From contig NZ_AMZB01000107.1 of NCBI RefSeq assembly GCF_000313755.1, positions 1 through 64,000 on the forward strand: DNA of 64,000 nt, written 5' to 3'. The translations under genes were made by a program, and so were the position numbers. The DNA is from Pseudomonas nitroreducens TX1. GTDB taxonomy: Bacteria; Pseudomonadota; Gammaproteobacteria; Pseudomonadales; Pseudomonadaceae. The notes under the pieces were generated by a model. It was not told the DNA's origin. It worked only from the letters and a program-made list of their open reading frames with translations, and made no database searches. Positions 6,632 through 13,638 of the stretch are shown here, in pieces; the stretch's first letter is position 1; every line of letters starts with the position of its first letter.

Positions 6632-6649
6632 CTGTTGCCTGAGCAACAG
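6632..6649. promoter_or_regulatory. Inverted repeat, candidate SfnR enhancer of sfnG
   Basis: CTGTTGC-CTGA-GCAACAG is a perfect 7-bp palindrome with a 4-nt centre. It lies about 86 bp upstream of the -24 element of sfnG. The half-site CTGTTGCCTG recurs as a 12-bp-arm inverted repeat upstream of the msuE operon (13589-13625). Sigma-54 activators such as SfnR bind dyad enhancers 60-200 bp upstream of their promoters. I infer that this is an SfnR site. Confidence 0.6.
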
Positions 6650-6734
6650 TTTGCCAGCAACGTTGGGCCAGACGGAACAGCAGCCGTTGTCCCGGCTAAT
6701 GACCAAGTGTCTGATCCGCCGGGAATTCCTCCCG

Positions 6735-6750
6735 TGGCACGGCTTTCGCT
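6735..6750 (+). promoter_or_regulatory. Sigma-54 (-24/-12) promoter of sfnG
   Basis: TGGCACGGCTTTCGCT matches the RpoN consensus TGGCACG-N4-TTGCW, with the GG and GC dinucleotides at the required spacing and one mismatch (TCGC for TTGC). It lies 51 bp before the GTG start of sfnG. It fits regulation of sfnG by the sigma-54 activator SfnR encoded about 3 kb away. Confidence 0.75.
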
Positions 6751-6801
6751 CTGTACATCCTGCGGCACCTTCGCCGCAGTGCAGCATCGAGGAGCCGAGC
6801 C

Positions 6802-7896
6802 GTGAGCCAACAAGCGATCCGTTTTGCCTACTGGGTTCCCAACGTCAGTGGCGGCCTGGTGGTCAGCAAGATTGAGCAGCGCACCCACTGGGACATCGAC
6901 TACAACCGCGAGCTCGCGCGCATTGCCGAGAACGCCGGATTCGACTACGCGCTGACGCAGATCCGCTTCACCGCCGGCTACGGCGCCGAGAACCAGCACG
7001 AGTCGGTGGCATTCAGCCATGCCCTGCTGGGCGCCACCGAGAAACTCAAGGTGATCGCCGCCATCCTCCCCGGCCCCTGGACGCCCGCGCTGGCCGCCAA
7101 GCAACTGGCCACCATCGACCAGCTCACTGCCGGGCGTATTGCGGTAAACATCGTCAGCGGCTGGTTCAAGGGTGAATTCCAGGCCATCGGCGAGCCCTGG
7201 CTGGAACACGACGAACGCTACCGTCGCTCGGAGGAATTCATCCGCGCCCTGAAGGGCATCTGGACCCAGGACAACTTCACTTTCACGGGCGACTTCTACC
7301 GCTTCCACGATTACAACCTCAAGCCCAAACCCATCCAGCGTCCGCACCCGGAGATCTTCCAGGGCGGCAGCTCGCGAGCCGCGCGGGACATGGCTTCGCG
7401 CGTTTCCGACTGGTACTTCACCAACGGCAACAGCGTGGAAGGCATCAAGGCCCAGGTGGACGACATCCGCGAAAAAGCCGCAGCCAACGGACATTCGGTG
7501 AAGATCGGCGTGAACGCTTTCGTCATCGCCCGCGACACCGAGCAAGAGGCCCGCGCGGTGCTCGCCGAGATCATCGACAAGGCCGACCCGGAAGCGGTGA
7601 ACGCCTTCGGCCACGCGGCGAAACAAGCCGGTGCAGCGTCACCGGAGGGCGAAGGAAACTGGGCGAAATCCACCTTCGAGGACCTGGTGCAGTACAACGA
7701 CGGCTTCAAGACTAACCTGATCGGCACGCCCCAGCAGATCGCCGAGCGCATCGTCGCGCTCAAGGCAGTGGGTGTGGACCTGGTGCTGGCGGGCTTCCTG
7801 CATTTCCAGGAAGAGGTGCGCTACTTCGGTGAAAAGGTACTGCCGCGGGTGCGCGAACTGGAGCAGAAGAAGGCGCGACGGACCGAGGCGGCTTGA
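6802..7896 (+). CDS. sfnG: Dimethylsulfone monooxygenase SfnG (FMNH2-dependent)
   Basis: This 364-residue protein of the bacterial luciferase-like TIM-barrel family is close in length and sequence to SfnG. SfnG uses FMNH2 and O2 to convert dimethylsulfone to methanesulfinate in sulfur-limited pseudomonads. Characteristic segments are FAYWVPNVSGGLVVSK near the N-terminus, GRIAVNIVSGWFKGEF and EIFQGGSS. The start is GTG at 6802 after GGAGCCGAGCC. It stands alone on +, behind a sigma-54 promoter and an inverted repeat. The reductase partner is probably MsuE, encoded in the nearby operon. Confidence 0.92.
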   Translation: MSQQAIRFAYWVPNVSGGLVVSKIEQRTHWDIDYNRELARIAENAGFDYALTQIRFTAGYGAENQHESVAFSHALLGATEKLKVIAAILPGPWTPALAAKQLATIDQLTAGRIAVNIVSGWFKGEFQAIGEPWLEHDERYRRSEEFIRALKGIWTQDNFTFTGDFYRFHDYNLKPKPIQRPHPEIFQGGSSRAARDMASRVSDWYFTNGNSVEGIKAQVDDIREKAAANGHSVKIGVNAFVIARDTEQEARAVLAEIIDKADPEAVNAFGHAAKQAGAASPEGEGNWAKSTFEDLVQYNDGFKTNLIGTPQQIAERIVALKAVGVDLVLAGFLHFQEEVRYFGEKVLPRVRELEQKKARRTEAA

Positions 7897-7925
7897 TCAC
7901 CGACCGTCCGCGTGCGCGGATAGCC

Positions 7926-7991
7926 ATCGCGGACACAGTCCGCTCCTACGCCGGGCTCACCGATGACGTAGGAGCGGACTCCGTCCGCGAT
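7926..7991. repeat. REP inverted pair (GTAGGAGCGGAC type)
   Basis: ATCGCGGACACAGTCCGCTCCTAC (7926-7949) and GTAGGAGCGGACTCCGTCCGCGAT (7968-7991) are near-perfect inverse copies separated by 18 bp, a typical Pseudomonas REP doublet. It sits just after sfnG, between convergent genes, where it may stabilise mRNA ends or bind gyrase or IHF (general knowledge of REPs, not shown here). Confidence 0.8.
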
Positions 7992-8023
7992 CGTTTCCAG
8001 GCCGCATCACGGGCAGGCCTGGG

Positions 8024-8094
8024 TTCGCGAGCAAGCTCGCTCCTAGTCACCGGAAGCACCGGCGTGCTGTTGTAGGAGCGAGCTTGCTCGCGAA
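8024..8094. repeat. REP inverted pair (GTAGGAGCGAGC type)
   Basis: TTCGCGAGCAAGCTCGCTCCTA (8024-8045) and TAGGAGCGAGCTTGCTCGCGAA (8073-8094) form a second REP doublet 33 bp after the first. Its core differs (AGCTTGCTCGCGAA rather than GGACTCCGTCCGCGAT). Two REP variants side by side fill the 203-bp gap between sfnG and the next gene. Confidence 0.8.
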
Positions 8095-8099
8095 CGCCC

Positions 8100-9272
8100 T
8101 CAGGCGCCCTGCGTCAGGTGTTTTGCAATCGCCGTGCGCAGCGGCGGCAGGTTCTGCGCCAGGCGCAGGCCGGCGTTGCGCAGCAGACGAACTGGCGGGC
8201 GCGGGTCGGTGTACATGCCGACGATCAGCCGCGTGGCCTGGTACAGCGGCCAGGTCGCCAGGCGGTGAGCCATGGCGTAGCGGCGCAGCGGCCAGGTGCC
8301 GCCGATATCGCCGCCCCGGCGATGGGTCGCGAGGATTTCATTGGCCAGCCGGCGCTGGCTCTGCAGGCCGAAGTTGAAGCCGTGGGCGGTGACCGGGTGC
8401 ATGCCGACGGCGGCATCGCCGATCAGCGCGCTGCGCGGGCCGACGAAACGGTCCGAGTACACCCCCACCAGCGGATAGCTGTGACGCGCGCCGAGCAACT
8501 CCATGCCGCCCAGACGACGGTCGAAACGGCGCTCCACCTCGCGGGCGAAGGCCTGCTCGTCCAGCTCCAGCAGCGGCGCCATCTCGCGCTGCGGCAAGGT
8601 CAGCACGACGGAAGAGCGGTCGCCATTGATCGGCAGCAACGCCAGGGTCTGCCCGTAGCCGAACCATTCCCAGGCCACGTTGTGGTGCGGTTTCTCATGG
8701 GCCATGCGGCAGACCATCATGGTCTTGCCGAAGTCCTCCATGCTCGCGCCGATACCCAGCATGCGGCGGGTCTCGGAGAAGCGGCTGTCGGCAGCGACCA
8801 GCAGGCGCGCATGGACGCGGCTGTCGTCGTCCAGGGTCAGCGCCACGCCGTCCTGCCGGACCTGCAGCGAACGCAAGGCGCGGCCGCAGACCAGCGAGAC
8901 GTCGGCACACTCGTGCACCGCGTCGAAGGCAGCGCGGCGGATCATCTGGTTGGAGACGAAATACCCCAGCTGTTCCGCACCAGCCTGCTCGGCCTCGATG
9001 CGCAGGGTGAACAGCGAAGGGCCATTGAGCACCTGGGCATCGCGCAGCGGCGAGACGTCCTCGGGGTCGATCCGCGACCACATGCCCAGCCGCTGCAGTT
9101 CGGCGCGGGAGGCGTGGGTCAGCGCGATCTCGCGGCCGTCCTCGGCGGGGTCGGACACCGCGGCCAGCGGCTGACGGTCGATCAGCAGGATCGACAGGCC
9201 GTTGCCCGACAGCGAGCGGGCCAGGCAAAGCCCGGCGGGGCCGGCGCCGACGATGGCGATGTCCACGTGCAT
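8100..9272 (-). CDS. UbiH/UbiF/COQ6-type FAD-dependent hydroxylase
   Basis: This 390-residue flavoprotein monooxygenase has an N-terminal dinucleotide-binding loop (IVGAGPAGLCLA, residues 7-18). The FAD-ribityl GD motif is IGDAAVGMHPVTAHGFN. The MHPVTAHGFNFGLQ segment is typical of ubiquinone-biosynthesis hydroxylases (UbiH/UbiI/UbiF; a UbiM-like role is possible). The exact ring position it acts on cannot be told. The start ATG at 9272 follows AGGAGTCACCC. It lies 125 bp downstream of sfnR on the same strand but looks independent of that operon. Confidence 0.82.
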   Translation of the reverse strand: MHVDIAIVGAGPAGLCLARSLSGNGLSILLIDRQPLAAVSDPAEDGREIALTHASRAELQRLGMWSRIDPEDVSPLRDAQVLNGPSLFTLRIEAEQAGAEQLGYFVSNQMIRRAAFDAVHECADVSLVCGRALRSLQVRQDGVALTLDDDSRVHARLLVAADSRFSETRRMLGIGASMEDFGKTMMVCRMAHEKPHHNVAWEWFGYGQTLALLPINGDRSSVVLTLPQREMAPLLELDEQAFAREVERRFDRRLGGMELLGARHSYPLVGVYSDRFVGPRSALIGDAAVGMHPVTAHGFNFGLQSQRRLANEILATHRRGGDIGGTWPLRRYAMAHRLATWPLYQATRLIVGMYTDPRPPVRLLRNAGLRLAQNLPPLRTAIAKHLTQGA

Positions 9273-9396
9273 GGGTGACTCCTTTGGCGAGGGATGGGCG
9301 GTCCCGGAGTCTAGGCTGGCCACTGGCCCGTTTCGTTGCCGTGGATCAGTGGCCCACGGCGAATACCTCCAAATAGACGGGCCCGACCCGAGCGAG

Positions 9397-10511
<1,115 letters not shown>

Positions 10512-10515
<4 letters not shown>

Positions 10516-11696
10516 GAGTAGAAAGTCGGTTGCGGCAGTTGCTGGTTCAGCGCCCAGTCGCCCAGTTCGCGAACCTTGTAGTCCACCGGGTCGTGCAGGG
10601 TCTGGGTGCGCAGATTGCGCCAGTAGCGGTCGATGCGCAGCGCGGCGTGGGTGGAGCGCGCACCGGTGACTTCGAACAGGCGGTTGCAGATGTCCAGGCC
10701 GTTGCGGGTCGCCGCGACCTTGGCGGTGGCGATGGCCACGGCCAGCCGGCCGCGCTCCTCGGCGTCCAGGGCGGCGCCTCTGCTCCAGGCTTCGTCGAGC
10801 AATTGGGCGGCGCGGCGCACCAGCAGGCGGGTGCTTTCCAGGCCGACCCAGAACTCGCCGTAATGCCCAAGCACGTAAGGGTCCTCACCCACTGTGGCGG
10901 CGTTGGAACGGAACCACGGACGGGCCTCCTTGAGCGTGTACTGCCGCGCCTCTTCGAACGCGCCCTCGGCAATGCCGAGGAATACATGGGTAAAGATCAG
11001 TTGGGCAATCAGCGGGCGCAGGCAGGCGAACGGCGTGCTCAGCGGGCCCGGATCGAGCAGCAGCTCGCTCTCCTCCACCCGCACCCGCTCAAAGGTGGCG
11101 CTGCCGCTGTCGGTCTGGCGCTGGCCCATGTTGTCCCAGTCGTGGGCGAGGCTGATGCCGCTGCGGGCGGTGGGAATGGCGGCGATCAGCAGCTTGCCGC
11201 CCTCGCCGTCCAGCGCCGAGGCAATGAGCATCTGCGAATCCAGCGCGCCGGAGCAGAAGCTCTTGCGCCCGGAGAATTCCCGCCAGCCGGCGAAGTTACG
11301 CGACACGGTGCGGGTGTCCAGCGGGTTCAGGGCGTTGCCCCAGAACCATTGGTTGCGCGCGGTCAGTTCGTACCACGGCTGCCACTGCTCGGGGCGGGAG
11401 AACAGCCGCACGGTGGCCAGCATCAGGTGCTGGAAGCCGAACACGTGGGCGATGGAGCTATCGACCACGGCAAACTGGCGCACGACGTCCAGCGTTGTGC
11501 TCCAGTCGGCGCCCAGGCCACCGTACTCGGTGGGGATGATCAGCGACAGCAGGCCGCTCTGGCGCAGCGCATCGCGCTCGGCCTTCGGCGTGCCGCCACG
11601 GATGTCGCGCTCGGCGGCGGTTTCGGCGAAACCGGCGGCCAGGCGTTGGGCTATTTGCCCGGGTGTCTGTACGTCGAGCCGCGTATTGGCGTTCAC
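10512..11696 (-). CDS. sfnC: Acyl-CoA dehydrogenase-family monooxygenase SfnC
   Basis: This protein of about 394 residues belongs to the acyl-CoA dehydrogenase/flavin monooxygenase (DszC-like) family. Segments include LIIPTEYGGLGADWSTTLDVV and a C-terminal helical region (RYWRNLRTQTLHDPVDYK) characteristic of flavin-dependent sulfur-oxidising members. In P. putida sfnC belongs to the sfnECR operon needed for organosulfur use; its exact substrate is not settled. I chose the GTG at 11696, preceded by GAGGAAGCGAGC; the frame is open to 11747. Its stop overlaps the sfnR start by 4 nt. Confidence 0.85.
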
Positions 11697-11758
11697 GCTC
11701 GCTTCCTCTTCTATCGATTCGGGATGTGCCAGGCCCCTGCCCGGCACACCAGGAGAAC

Positions 11759-12904
11759 TCAGCCGGCCTTGCGCCCAGGCAGCACATCGTTGGCGATCAT
11801 CTCGCCGAAGGGCCCGGTGAGGTTGGTCACGCCGCGGCCGGCGAGGCTCGCATAGGGCTCGGGCAGCAGCGGGAAGACCAGTTCGGCGAAACGGTAGGCC
11901 TCTTCCAGGTGCGGGTAGCCGGAGAAGATGAAGCTGTCGATCCCTAGGTCCGCATACTCCTTGATGCGCTCGGCGACCTGCTGCGGGTCGCCCACCAGCG
12001 CGGTACCGGCGCCGCCACGCACCAGGCCGACGCCGGCCCAGAGGTTGGGGTAGATCTCCAGCTGGTCACGGCGGCCGCCGTGCAGCGCGGCCATGCGCCG
12101 CTGGCCTTCGGAGTCGAAGCGGGCGAAGGATTTCTGCGCGTTGGCGATGGTCTCGTCGGAGATGTTGCCGATCAGCTTGTCGGCGGCCTGCCAGGCCTCC
12201 TCGGCGGTCTCGCGGACGATCACGTGCAGGCGAATGCCGAACTTGACGGTGCGCCCCTGCTTCGCGGCTTTCTCGCGCACATCGGCAAGCTTCTGCGCGA
12301 CCGCTTGCGGCGGCTCGCCCCAGGTCAGGTAGACGTCCACCTGCTCGGCGGCCAGGTCGTGGGCCTCGGCGGAGGAGCCGCCGAAGTACAGCGGCGGATA
12401 CGGCTTCTGGATCGGCGGATAGAGCGCCTTGGCGTTCTCCACCTGCAGGTGCTTGCCCTTGAAGTCCACGGATTCGCCCTGCAGCACGCGGCGCCAGATA
12501 CGCAGGAATTCATCGGTGACTTCATAGCGCTCGGCGTGGCTGAGGTGGATGCCGTCGCCACGGTTTTCATCCGGGTCGCCGCCGGTGACCACGTTGATCA
12601 GCAGGCGGCCGCCGGACAGCCGGTCCAGGGTCGCGGCCATGCGCGCGGACACGGTGGGCGAGATGATCCCCGGACGGATCGCCACCAGGTAACGCAGGCG
12701 CTCGGTGAGCGGCGCCAGGGCCGAGGCGACCACCCAGGAATCCTCGCAGGAGCGGCCGGTGGGAATCAGCACGCCGTAATAGCCGAGGGAATCGGCGGCC
12801 TGGGCGATCTGTTTGAGATACGGCAGCGACACCGGGCGCGCACCCTCGCTGGTGCCGAGGAAGTGGCCGTCGCCGTGGGTGGGCAGGAACCAGAACACGT
12901 TCAT
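11759..12904 (-). CDS. msuD: FMNH2-dependent methanesulfonate/alkanesulfonate monooxygenase MsuD
   Basis: At 381 residues it has the usual length of MsuD/SsuD. These TIM-barrel, luciferase-like enzymes release sulfite from C1 or longer alkanesulfonates. Family marks are [15 protein letters not shown] at the N-terminus, [26 protein letters not shown] and [15 protein letters not shown]. Similarity of the remembered P. aeruginosa MsuD sequence and the operon context favour MsuD over SsuD. It starts 10 nt after the msuE stop. It takes FMNH2 from MsuE and acts downstream of SfnG in the dimethylsulfone to sulfite route. Confidence 0.9.
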
Positions 12905-12914
12905 CGCGGGCTCC

Positions 12915-13472
12915 TCAGGCAGTCTTGCGCAGTTGCGGGCGGGCGAACAGCGGCGCGGCGCGCTCGGCGGCCAGCTGGATGCGCGCGCGCAGGGTGTCGC
13001 TGATGATCTGGTAGTTGGCGAAGTCCCCTTCGCTGGCGTACACGCCGATGGGTAGCGTGATCGACTGGAAGAAGCTGAACAGCGGGCGCAGCTGGTGGTC
13101 GAGGACAAGGGCGTGACGCTCGCTGCCGCCGGTGGCGGCGAGCAGCACCGGGGTGTCGATCAGGGCGTTCATGTCCACCAGGTCGAACAGGTGCTTGAGC
13201 AGGCCCGGATAGGAGCCACGGTAGACCGGAGAGGCGACTACCAGCAGATCGGCGGTCTCGATCTCGCGTAGCGTGGCTTCCAGCTCGGCGGAGAGCTCCT
13301 GGCGGGACAATGCGGCACCCAGCGGGCGGGCGATGTCGGCCAGTTCGATGAGCCGGGTGTCTACCGGCAAGCGTTCGCCGAGGGCGTCCAGCACGGCCTG
13401 GGTGAGCACCAGGGTGCGCGAGGGACGATAGGTGCCGCCGGAGACGGCGACCACTTTGATGGGGCTGGTCAT
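12915..13472 (-). CDS. msuE: NAD(P)H-dependent FMN reductase MsuE
   Basis: This 185-residue flavodoxin-fold reductase has the N-terminal phosphate loop [10 protein letters not shown] and the [19 protein letters not shown] segment typical of MsuE/SsuE. It supplies FMNH2 to MsuD and probably to SfnG. It is the first gene of a four-gene operon transcribed from a sigma-54 promoter about 43 bp upstream. In P. putida the equivalent gene is called sfnE. Confidence 0.92.
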
Positions 13473-13514
13473 GGGTTTTCCCTGTTGACTGTTGCGCTAG
13501 GTACAGAAGCCTTG

Positions 13515-13530
13515 AGCAAGGGCCGTACCA
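13515..13530 (-). promoter_or_regulatory. Sigma-54 (-24/-12) promoter of msuE-msuD-sfnC-sfnR
   Basis: Read on the minus strand the site is TGGTACGGCCCTTGCT, matching TGGCACG-N4-TTGCW with one change (T for C in the -24 box). It ends 43 bp before the msuE ATG. Together with the upstream dyad at 13589-13625 it puts the operon, including sfnR itself, under RpoN control. Confidence 0.78.
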
Positions 13531-13588
13531 ACAGGGAAATGTATGATTTTCGGGCACTTCAGCCCGTTCTGGCGGATGTTCCGTGTCA

Positions 13589-13625
13589 CCCAGGCAACAG
13601 CGCTGCTGATCGACTGTTGCCTGGG
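13589..13625. promoter_or_regulatory. 12-bp inverted repeat, candidate SfnR enhancer
   Basis: CCCAGGCAACAG (13589-13600) and CTGTTGCCTGGG (13614-13625) are perfect inverse copies with a 13-nt spacer. They are centred about 77 bp upstream of the -24 box of the msuE operon. The core CTGTTGCCTG also occurs in the sfnG upstream palindrome at 6632-6649. The shared sequence before two sigma-54 promoters is the basis for calling it an SfnR (autoregulatory) site. Confidence 0.62.
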
Positions 13626-13638
13626 AAACACTTCGCCA

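Follow-up and report, generated by a model that had tools for sequence, protein, structure and literature searches.

The 64,000-nucleotide stretch of Pseudomonas nitroreducens TX1 analysed here (contig NZ_AMZB01000107.1, positions 1 to 64,000), hereafter called the window, carries on its forward strand the dimethylsulfone monooxygenase gene sfnG and on its reverse strand the gene set msuE-msuD-msuC-sfnR, which ends in the gene for the sigma-54 activator SfnR. Both are preceded by a sigma-54 -24/-12 box and, further upstream, by a pair of 18-bp palindromes. We read the two pairs, at 6632-6680 and 13583-13631, as probable SfnR enhancers for sfnG and for msuE-msuD-msuC-sfnR, respectively, and put the probability of this reading at roughly 0.83. 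The features concerned are the following, with palindromes scored over 14 specified bases.

6632..6649, + strand: putative distal enhancer site of sfnG, CTGTTGCCTGAGCAACAG, a perfect palindrome CTGTTGC-N4-GCAACAG (14/14), centre at -120.5
6663..6680, + strand: putative proximal enhancer site of sfnG, degenerate (9/14), centre at -89.5, 31 bp from the distal site
6735..6750, + strand: sigma-54 -24/-12 box of sfnG, TGGCACGGCTTTCGCT, one base off the consensus used
13614..13631, - strand: putative distal enhancer site of msuE, GTGTTTCCCAGGCAACAG (12/14), centre at -118.5
13583..13600, - strand: putative proximal enhancer site of msuE, CTGTTGCCTGGGTGACAC (11/14), centre at -87.5
13515..13530, - strand: sigma-54 -24/-12 box of msuE, TGGTACGGCCCTTGCT, one base off the consensus used
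6802..7896, + strand: sfnG, dimethylsulfone monooxygenase (TIGR04021, 630.6 bits, cut-off 382.95)
12915..13472, - strand: msuE, FMN reductase (TIGR03566, 261.5 bits, cut-off 212.5)
11759..12904, - strand: msuD, FMNH2-dependent alkanesulfonate monooxygenase (TIGR03565, 645.2 bits, cut-off 518.2)
10512..11696, - strand: msuC, DszC/SfnB-like monooxygenase, under the DszC and SfnB cut-offs
9397..10515, - strand: sfnR, sigma-54 activator, with PF00158 at residues 30-193 and GAFTGA in the translation

Gaps of 10 bases between msuE and msuD and of 62 bases between msuD and msuC (its start taken as the GTG at 11696), together with an overlap of 4 bases between msuC and sfnR, fit a single operon, and the end of sfnR lies 1.5 kb from that of sfnG. 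Most of the gene names proposed in an earlier, sequence-only reading of this DNA were retained; the exception is its sfnC, which corresponds to msuC of the P. aeruginosa/P. fluorescens operon and is named here by operon position (cf. PMC8234197, in excerpt). The name sfnR rests on the domains of the product and on gene order in the operon (synteny), and the product is linked to msu and sfn genes in the window, as an SfnR-type protein would be; no curated SfnR model matched the product, with none over cut-off among the 25 of 29 NCBIfam families shown.

The sequence-only reading had placed one dyad and one -24/-12 box before each of the two transcription units. Both dyads (6632-6649 at sfnG; half-sites 13591-13600 on the minus strand and 13614-13623 on the plus strand at msuE) and both boxes (6735-6750 and 13515-13530) are present at those coordinates, the boxes with a -24 GG and a -12 GC at the correct spacing. 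Taken singly, the -24/-12 pattern is at chance level in the window (14 matches against 15.1 expected, two mismatches allowed), and so is a single half-site (7 matches in 64 kb against 5.67 expected, at most one mismatch), which was dropped as evidence for its chance frequency. The perfect 18-bp palindrome and the perfect N13 dyad each occur once in the window, and neither was found in 30 first-order Markov copies of it. In the whole genome (6.69 Mb), six palindromes were found at no more than one mismatch and none with the reversed control, the one before sfnG being the only perfect copy. The unit is an 18-bp palindrome that each promoter has in two copies, 31 bp apart, and not one half-site used at dyad spacings of 4 and 13 nt, as had been suggested. 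This idea of paired palindromes was formed on the window before the upstream regions of relatives were looked at.

The earlier claim had been made to depend on conservation of the dyads before sfnG and msuE in relatives, and the sites are indeed conserved there. Within the genus, and with the own genome included, the comparison covered the upstream regions of 21 msuE genes and of 13 sfnG genes, 12 of them full-length and one represented by the start of a broken copy. With the best-scoring place per region taken, each of the 34 regions has a distal palindrome that matches at 10-14 of the 14 bases (11-14 before each of the 13 sfnG genes), and a -24/-12 score of at least 10/12 is reached in 12/13 sfnG and 20/21 msuE regions (exceptions L057 and L107). 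When offsets from -60 to +60 from the best site were scanned, +31 was the top non-zero offset for msuE (mean 9.33, next 6.10); for sfnG it came first only barely (7.92 against 7.85 at -15), and the signal there is weak because of this nearly equal competitor. An alkanesulfonate-monooxygenase operon outside the training set described below carries the sites in 11 genus genomes, its family having been assigned on L149 only and the others by similarity and by eye; its promoters have a 31-bp partner of at least 9/14 in 9 of 11 cases, with a mean of 9.73 against 4.53 at control offsets. Between enhancer and box, two IHF-like sites were noted in the window, both weak in the own genome:

6704..6716, - strand: IHF-like site of sfnG, 7/9, at about -51
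13536..13548, - strand: IHF-like site of msuE, 7/9, at about -38

Three other sfnG promoters (L058, L062, and L067) have an IHF-like match of 8-9/9, and a match of at least 8/9 was found in 22 of 78 promoters against 2.2 expected from single-base shuffles, the window promoters reaching only 7/9.

Some of the relatives show local peculiarities. By eye, the msuE sigma-54 promoter appears to be present as a tandem repeat, its period about 21-22 bp, in L091, L092, L095, L098, and L099, where the upstream promoter copy is decayed and the enhancer lies about 21 bp (two helical turns) further out. At G017:C2:178955-179990, sfnG is broken into two reading frames and the promoter box and enhancer are retained. 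Eight genomes of the genus (G003, G006, G011, G012, G015, G019, G020, and G021) have sfnR and msuE and no sfnG over the family cut-off.

A profile built from sequence alone (R1), trained on 25 of the 34 genus enhancers with the window's two included, matched 45 of 198 family genomes at E <=0.001, 24 of them outside the genus, and 2 of 115 genomes in an order-wide sample, both belonging to the window's genus. The out-of-genus matches made up 39 rows, or 38 distinct sites (one was found on both strands), all of which were examined. A -24/-12 score of at least 10 at 60-100 bp, on either strand, accompanies 34 of the 38 (25/26 plus 9/12), compared with 1.06% of random positions (20,000 positions in 20 loci). 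No such box accompanies the other four: L319, which has a score-9 box before an msuE, L251, which lies in a gene, and L317 and L318, from genomes G098 and G152. The first open reading frames behind the out-of-genus sites, named by eye and by BLAST searches of the proteins of the window and the genus, with some left unnamed, include msuE, sfnG, msuC, SfnB-like dehydrogenases, and sulfonate-binding-like proteins. A strict palindrome-plus-box pattern was found in 102 of 398 family genomes, with no control match among the matches listed. A variant with 7 in place of 6 bases between the two promoter elements gave 2 off-lineage matches, which count as a negative control only.

The site goes together with sigma-54 boxes and sulfur genes, and its distribution is linked to that of SfnR. 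SfnR-like proteins (E <=1e-100) are encoded by 71 of the 198 family genomes and by 43 of the 45 R1-positive ones (22 of 24 outside the genus); the two R1-positive genomes that lack the protein are G098 and G152, whose matches have no good box at the regular distance. Outside the genus, 22 genomes have both site and SfnR, 27 SfnR only, 2 the site only, and 122 neither (Fisher p 2.5e-12, uncorrected for shared ancestry), and the site is rare where the regulator is missing, with an R1 match in 2 of 127 SfnR-negative genomes.

Conservation, distance to the sigma-54 box, the sulfur genes behind the sites, and co-occurrence with SfnR together support the suggestion, already made from the window, that the dyads would act as SfnR enhancers. 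In the mechanism proposed here, SfnR dimers would bind the palindromes CTGTTGC-N4-GCAACAG, at a strong distal site near -118/-120 and at a weaker site that lies 31 bp, or three helical turns, nearer the promoter on the same face of the DNA. Bound SfnR would then drive open-complex formation by sigma-54 polymerase at -24/-12, with IHF probably bending the intervening DNA in some relatives. The position of sfnR as the last gene of the msuE operon, behind a sigma-54 box and sites, implies autoregulation: SfnR probably switches on its own operon, which would place sfnR within its own regulon and create a positive loop.

Several observations weigh against this reading. The two window sites stand far ahead in the R1 ranking of the own genome (E 4e-12 and 1e-8), where few other matches are conspicuous by score, but R1 had been trained on both of them. 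Two further candidates, on contigs C99 and C134, score E 0.51 and 0.16, which is within noise, so that they rest on conservation in relatives. The strict palindrome-plus-box pattern has no match in the own genome, where the distal msuE site and the sfnG -12 deviate from it. No R1 match was found in 28 of the 71 SfnR-positive genomes overall, nor, at E 0.001, in 27 of the 49 outside the genus; either R1, with its stricter filters there, misses many sites or the sites differ in those genomes. The 31-bp partner is missing in six of six SfnB promoters (4.00 against 4.59 for the control) and reaches at least 9/14 in only 10 of the 24 out-of-genus promoters tested; the six SfnB promoters indicate that pairing is common and not obligatory. 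In P. putida DS1, SfnR reportedly also has a negative effect on sfnFG, exerted from a site downstream of the start, and the sfnECR operon is reportedly activated by CysB, whereas in the window sfnR ends the msuEDC operon, with a sigma-54 box and paired sites of its own. Lastly, the likely recognition helix of SfnR is for the most part the same in a 63%-identical paralogue and does not discriminate between the two as binder.

SfnR itself has about 29 residues before its AAA+ domain, a GAFTGA motif, and no N-terminal regulatory domain. Its C-terminus scores 12.7 bits against HTH_8 (cut-off 22), and four C-terminal helices appear in a structure model of low overall confidence (mean pLDDT 55). Because SfnR has no sensor domain, output should follow the amount of SfnR, and a self-activating operon with such an activator would need an external trigger. 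The loop would most plausibly be started by the paralogue, a stand-alone gene on contig C117 of the own genome; paralogues of 61-63% identity are listed in 16 of 24 genus genomes. In the start regions of the paralogue (1 kb, 13 genomes), no palindrome above 11/14 and no box above 9/12 was found; a score-9 box-like match about 350 bp or more upstream in 4 of the 13, own genome included, probably lies in another gene. An AT-rich block just before the paralogue (GTTATATATAAATTC..) is strongly conserved in a 13-sequence alignment (7 printed; G010 most different), matches once in the own genome at no more than three mismatches, and is a putative CysB/sigma-70 promoter of the paralogue. In L271 (own contig C117:19300-20300), the AT-rich block upstream of the paralogue reads TATATAAATTCTAATTGATAATTTTTT.

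It is also possible, if doubtful, that the stand-alone paralogue is the main binder of the palindromes and that the SfnR of the operon has another role or none. The C-terminal signature of the paralogue is similar to that of SfnR (SRNIVRARLEKIGEL being one of the two compared), and its wide occurrence in the genus and an upstream region without the sites would suit such a role. SfnR2 is reported, to go by the title of Lundgren 2019, to regulate dimethyl-sulfide-related utilization in P. aeruginosa PAO1. Several R1-positive genomes (e.g., G006, G016, G045, and G089), however, have a single SfnR-like protein at E 1e-100.

Enhancer function of paired 18-bp palindromes is to be preferred by far to the idea of one half-site arranged in two dyads, with spacings of 4 and 13 nt and each dyad a single binding site, which we consider improbable. 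Although the window has a perfect N13 dyad, the half-sites converge at sfnG (CTGTTGC>N4<GCAACAG) and diverge at msuE (GCAACAG N13 CTGTTGC), and this opposite polarity cannot belong to one dyad with a variable spacer. The N13 dyad at msuE consists of the inner halves of two palindromes, of which the distal one is full in five relatives (L090, L093, L097, L101, and L106), while the proximal site of sfnG has a degenerate left half and a better preserved right half. Polarity, the full distal palindrome in relatives, and the independent alkanesulfonate-monooxygenase operon, with its two near-full palindromes 31 bp apart, led us to drop the N13 dyad as one binding site; the sequence-only reading had missed both the opposite polarity and the second site 31 bp away at each promoter. 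A similarly small chance is given to binding of a regulator of another kind than sigma-54 activators, such as the sulfur-responsive LysR-type CysB. A hierarchy of CysB and SfnR in P. putida is reportedly the subject of Kouzuma 2008, by its title, but the regular -24/-12 distance at 34 of 38 held-out sites and the co-occurrence with SfnR argue for the sigma-54 activator. Descent or chance, with palindromes lingering in slow-changing intergenic DNA and without a regulatory role, would suit the close relationship of the genus members and a single half-site that is not enriched in the window, but is highly improbable given that the same site stands before unrelated genes (msuE, sfnG, SfnB-like, SsuD-like, and sulfonate-binding-like) in several genera, against a random rate of about 1%.

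Apart from the paired enhancers, msuE has a third palindrome in its leader:

13489..13506, - strand: candidate third site of msuE, CTGTACCTAGCGCAACAG (12/14), centre at +6.5, over the start

In 19 of 20 msuE leaders of the genus, a palindrome exceeds the 95% shuffle level; its centre lies at +6.5 in the 15 closer leaders and between +15.5 and +18.5 in five others, among which L106 just equals that level. Of the 13 msuE leaders tested from outside the genus, 10 score 9-11/14 at exactly +6.5, and the remaining three (L254, L259, and L263) have no element at that place, with scores of 1-5. At the same position, scores of only 2-7 (mean 4.7) are seen in the SfnB and monooxygenase groups, 17 promoters in all, which marks the element as conserved in position and particular to msuE. 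At sfnG, the best downstream sites score 7-9/14, which in none of 12 cases exceeds the 95% shuffle level, and no claim is made for them. The +6.5 palindrome is a candidate feedback operator. The leaders of close relatives are almost identical, and in the five more divergent ones (L102-L106) an apparent RNA hairpin, seen by eye, covers part of the downstream element; the element may therefore have an RNA role instead of an operator role. As a speculative extension, with the odds rather against it, msuEDC-sfnR could form a self-limiting amplifier that a CysB-driven paralogue would start, the paired enhancer boost, and the +6.5 palindrome shut, within a regulon that would include TonB/SsuA-type sulfonate uptake.

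The regulon had been described as compact, which is probably too small an estimate: beyond sfnG and the msuE operon it may take in two weaker candidate targets, on contigs C99 and C134 of the own genome. The promoter on C99 has a site of 13/14 at -118.5, the box CGGCACAGCTTGTGCA, and an IHF-like match of 9/9 at -51, and its downstream gene codes for an SfnB protein (TIGR04022, 636 bits, over cut-off). All six SfnB-type promoters, the own one included, have a 13-14/14 site at -118.5 and an IHF match. The promoter on C134 has weaker sites (11 and 10 of 14), the box CGGTACGGATATTGCG, and an IHF-like match of 9/9 before a gene for a TonB receptor, which is followed by SsuA-like and SsuD-like genes; five promoters of this type were collected, own genome included. 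The C134 site is of uncertain direction, since weaker boxes also stand on the opposite strand, in front of a phosphatase-like gene. Promoters of the C99 and C134 types were picked because of their matches, so that these fractions are not frequencies. Not counted were C85:25046 (E 0.0024), which has a score-10 box within 200 bp, a best palindrome of only 10/14, and no identified sulfur gene, and the one-mismatch palindromes on C114, C120, C121, and C136, which have no box of score at least 9 within 260 bp.

On C99, one sigma-54 box stands before a cluster (L142 2815-9815) with genes for three SfnB-like dehydrogenases, a monooxygenase of the NtaA/DmoA family, and transport proteins resembling MetI and MetQ; scans covered the monooxygenase, the MetQ-like protein, and the first of the dehydrogenases. 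In the window, repeated and inverted GC-rich units were seen by eye at 7915-8100, between sfnG and a ubiM-like gene, and are presumably REP elements of the kind usual in Pseudomonas.

NtrC-type sigma-54 activators use tandem palindromic enhancers, and the arrangement before sfnG and msuE resembles theirs: two palindromes stand upstream of -24/-12 at a distance of about three helical turns from each other, and some promoters have an IHF-like site in the intervening DNA. SfnR differs in having no receiver or sensor domain and in its site, CTGTTGC-N4-GCAACAG. A sulfur regulon of SfnR and sigma-54 is already known from P. putida and P. aeruginosa. In P. putida, SfnR and sigma-54 reportedly regulate sfnFG and sfnA, to judge from titles (Endoh 2003, 2005; Habe 2007), and titles indicate that the SfnR regulon of strain DS1 shares the activator family, the sigma factor, the target sfnG, and a CysB hierarchy with the one described here. 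A related system is msuEDC-sfnR1 with SfnR2 of P. aeruginosa PAO1 (Kertesz 1999; Lundgren 2019), and in sulfur-starved PAO1 transcripts of sfnG, msuD, and msuE and the proteins SfnG, SfnR1, and MsuCDE rise (PMC12581299, in excerpt). The literature searched, outside which the primary SfnR papers lie, contained no text with both SfnR and a word starting CTGTTG. What is described here is the 18-bp site, its pairing at 31 bp, its spread through the family, and the sigma-54 box and sites before msuEDC-sfnR, and no claim is made that the motif is unpublished. With an SfnR site defined by sequence, the sulfur-scavenging regulon could be predicted across a large bacterial family from genomes alone; such a site adds candidate members to the regulon, and it sharpens the question of how a sigma-54 activator without a sensor gets switched on and restrained.

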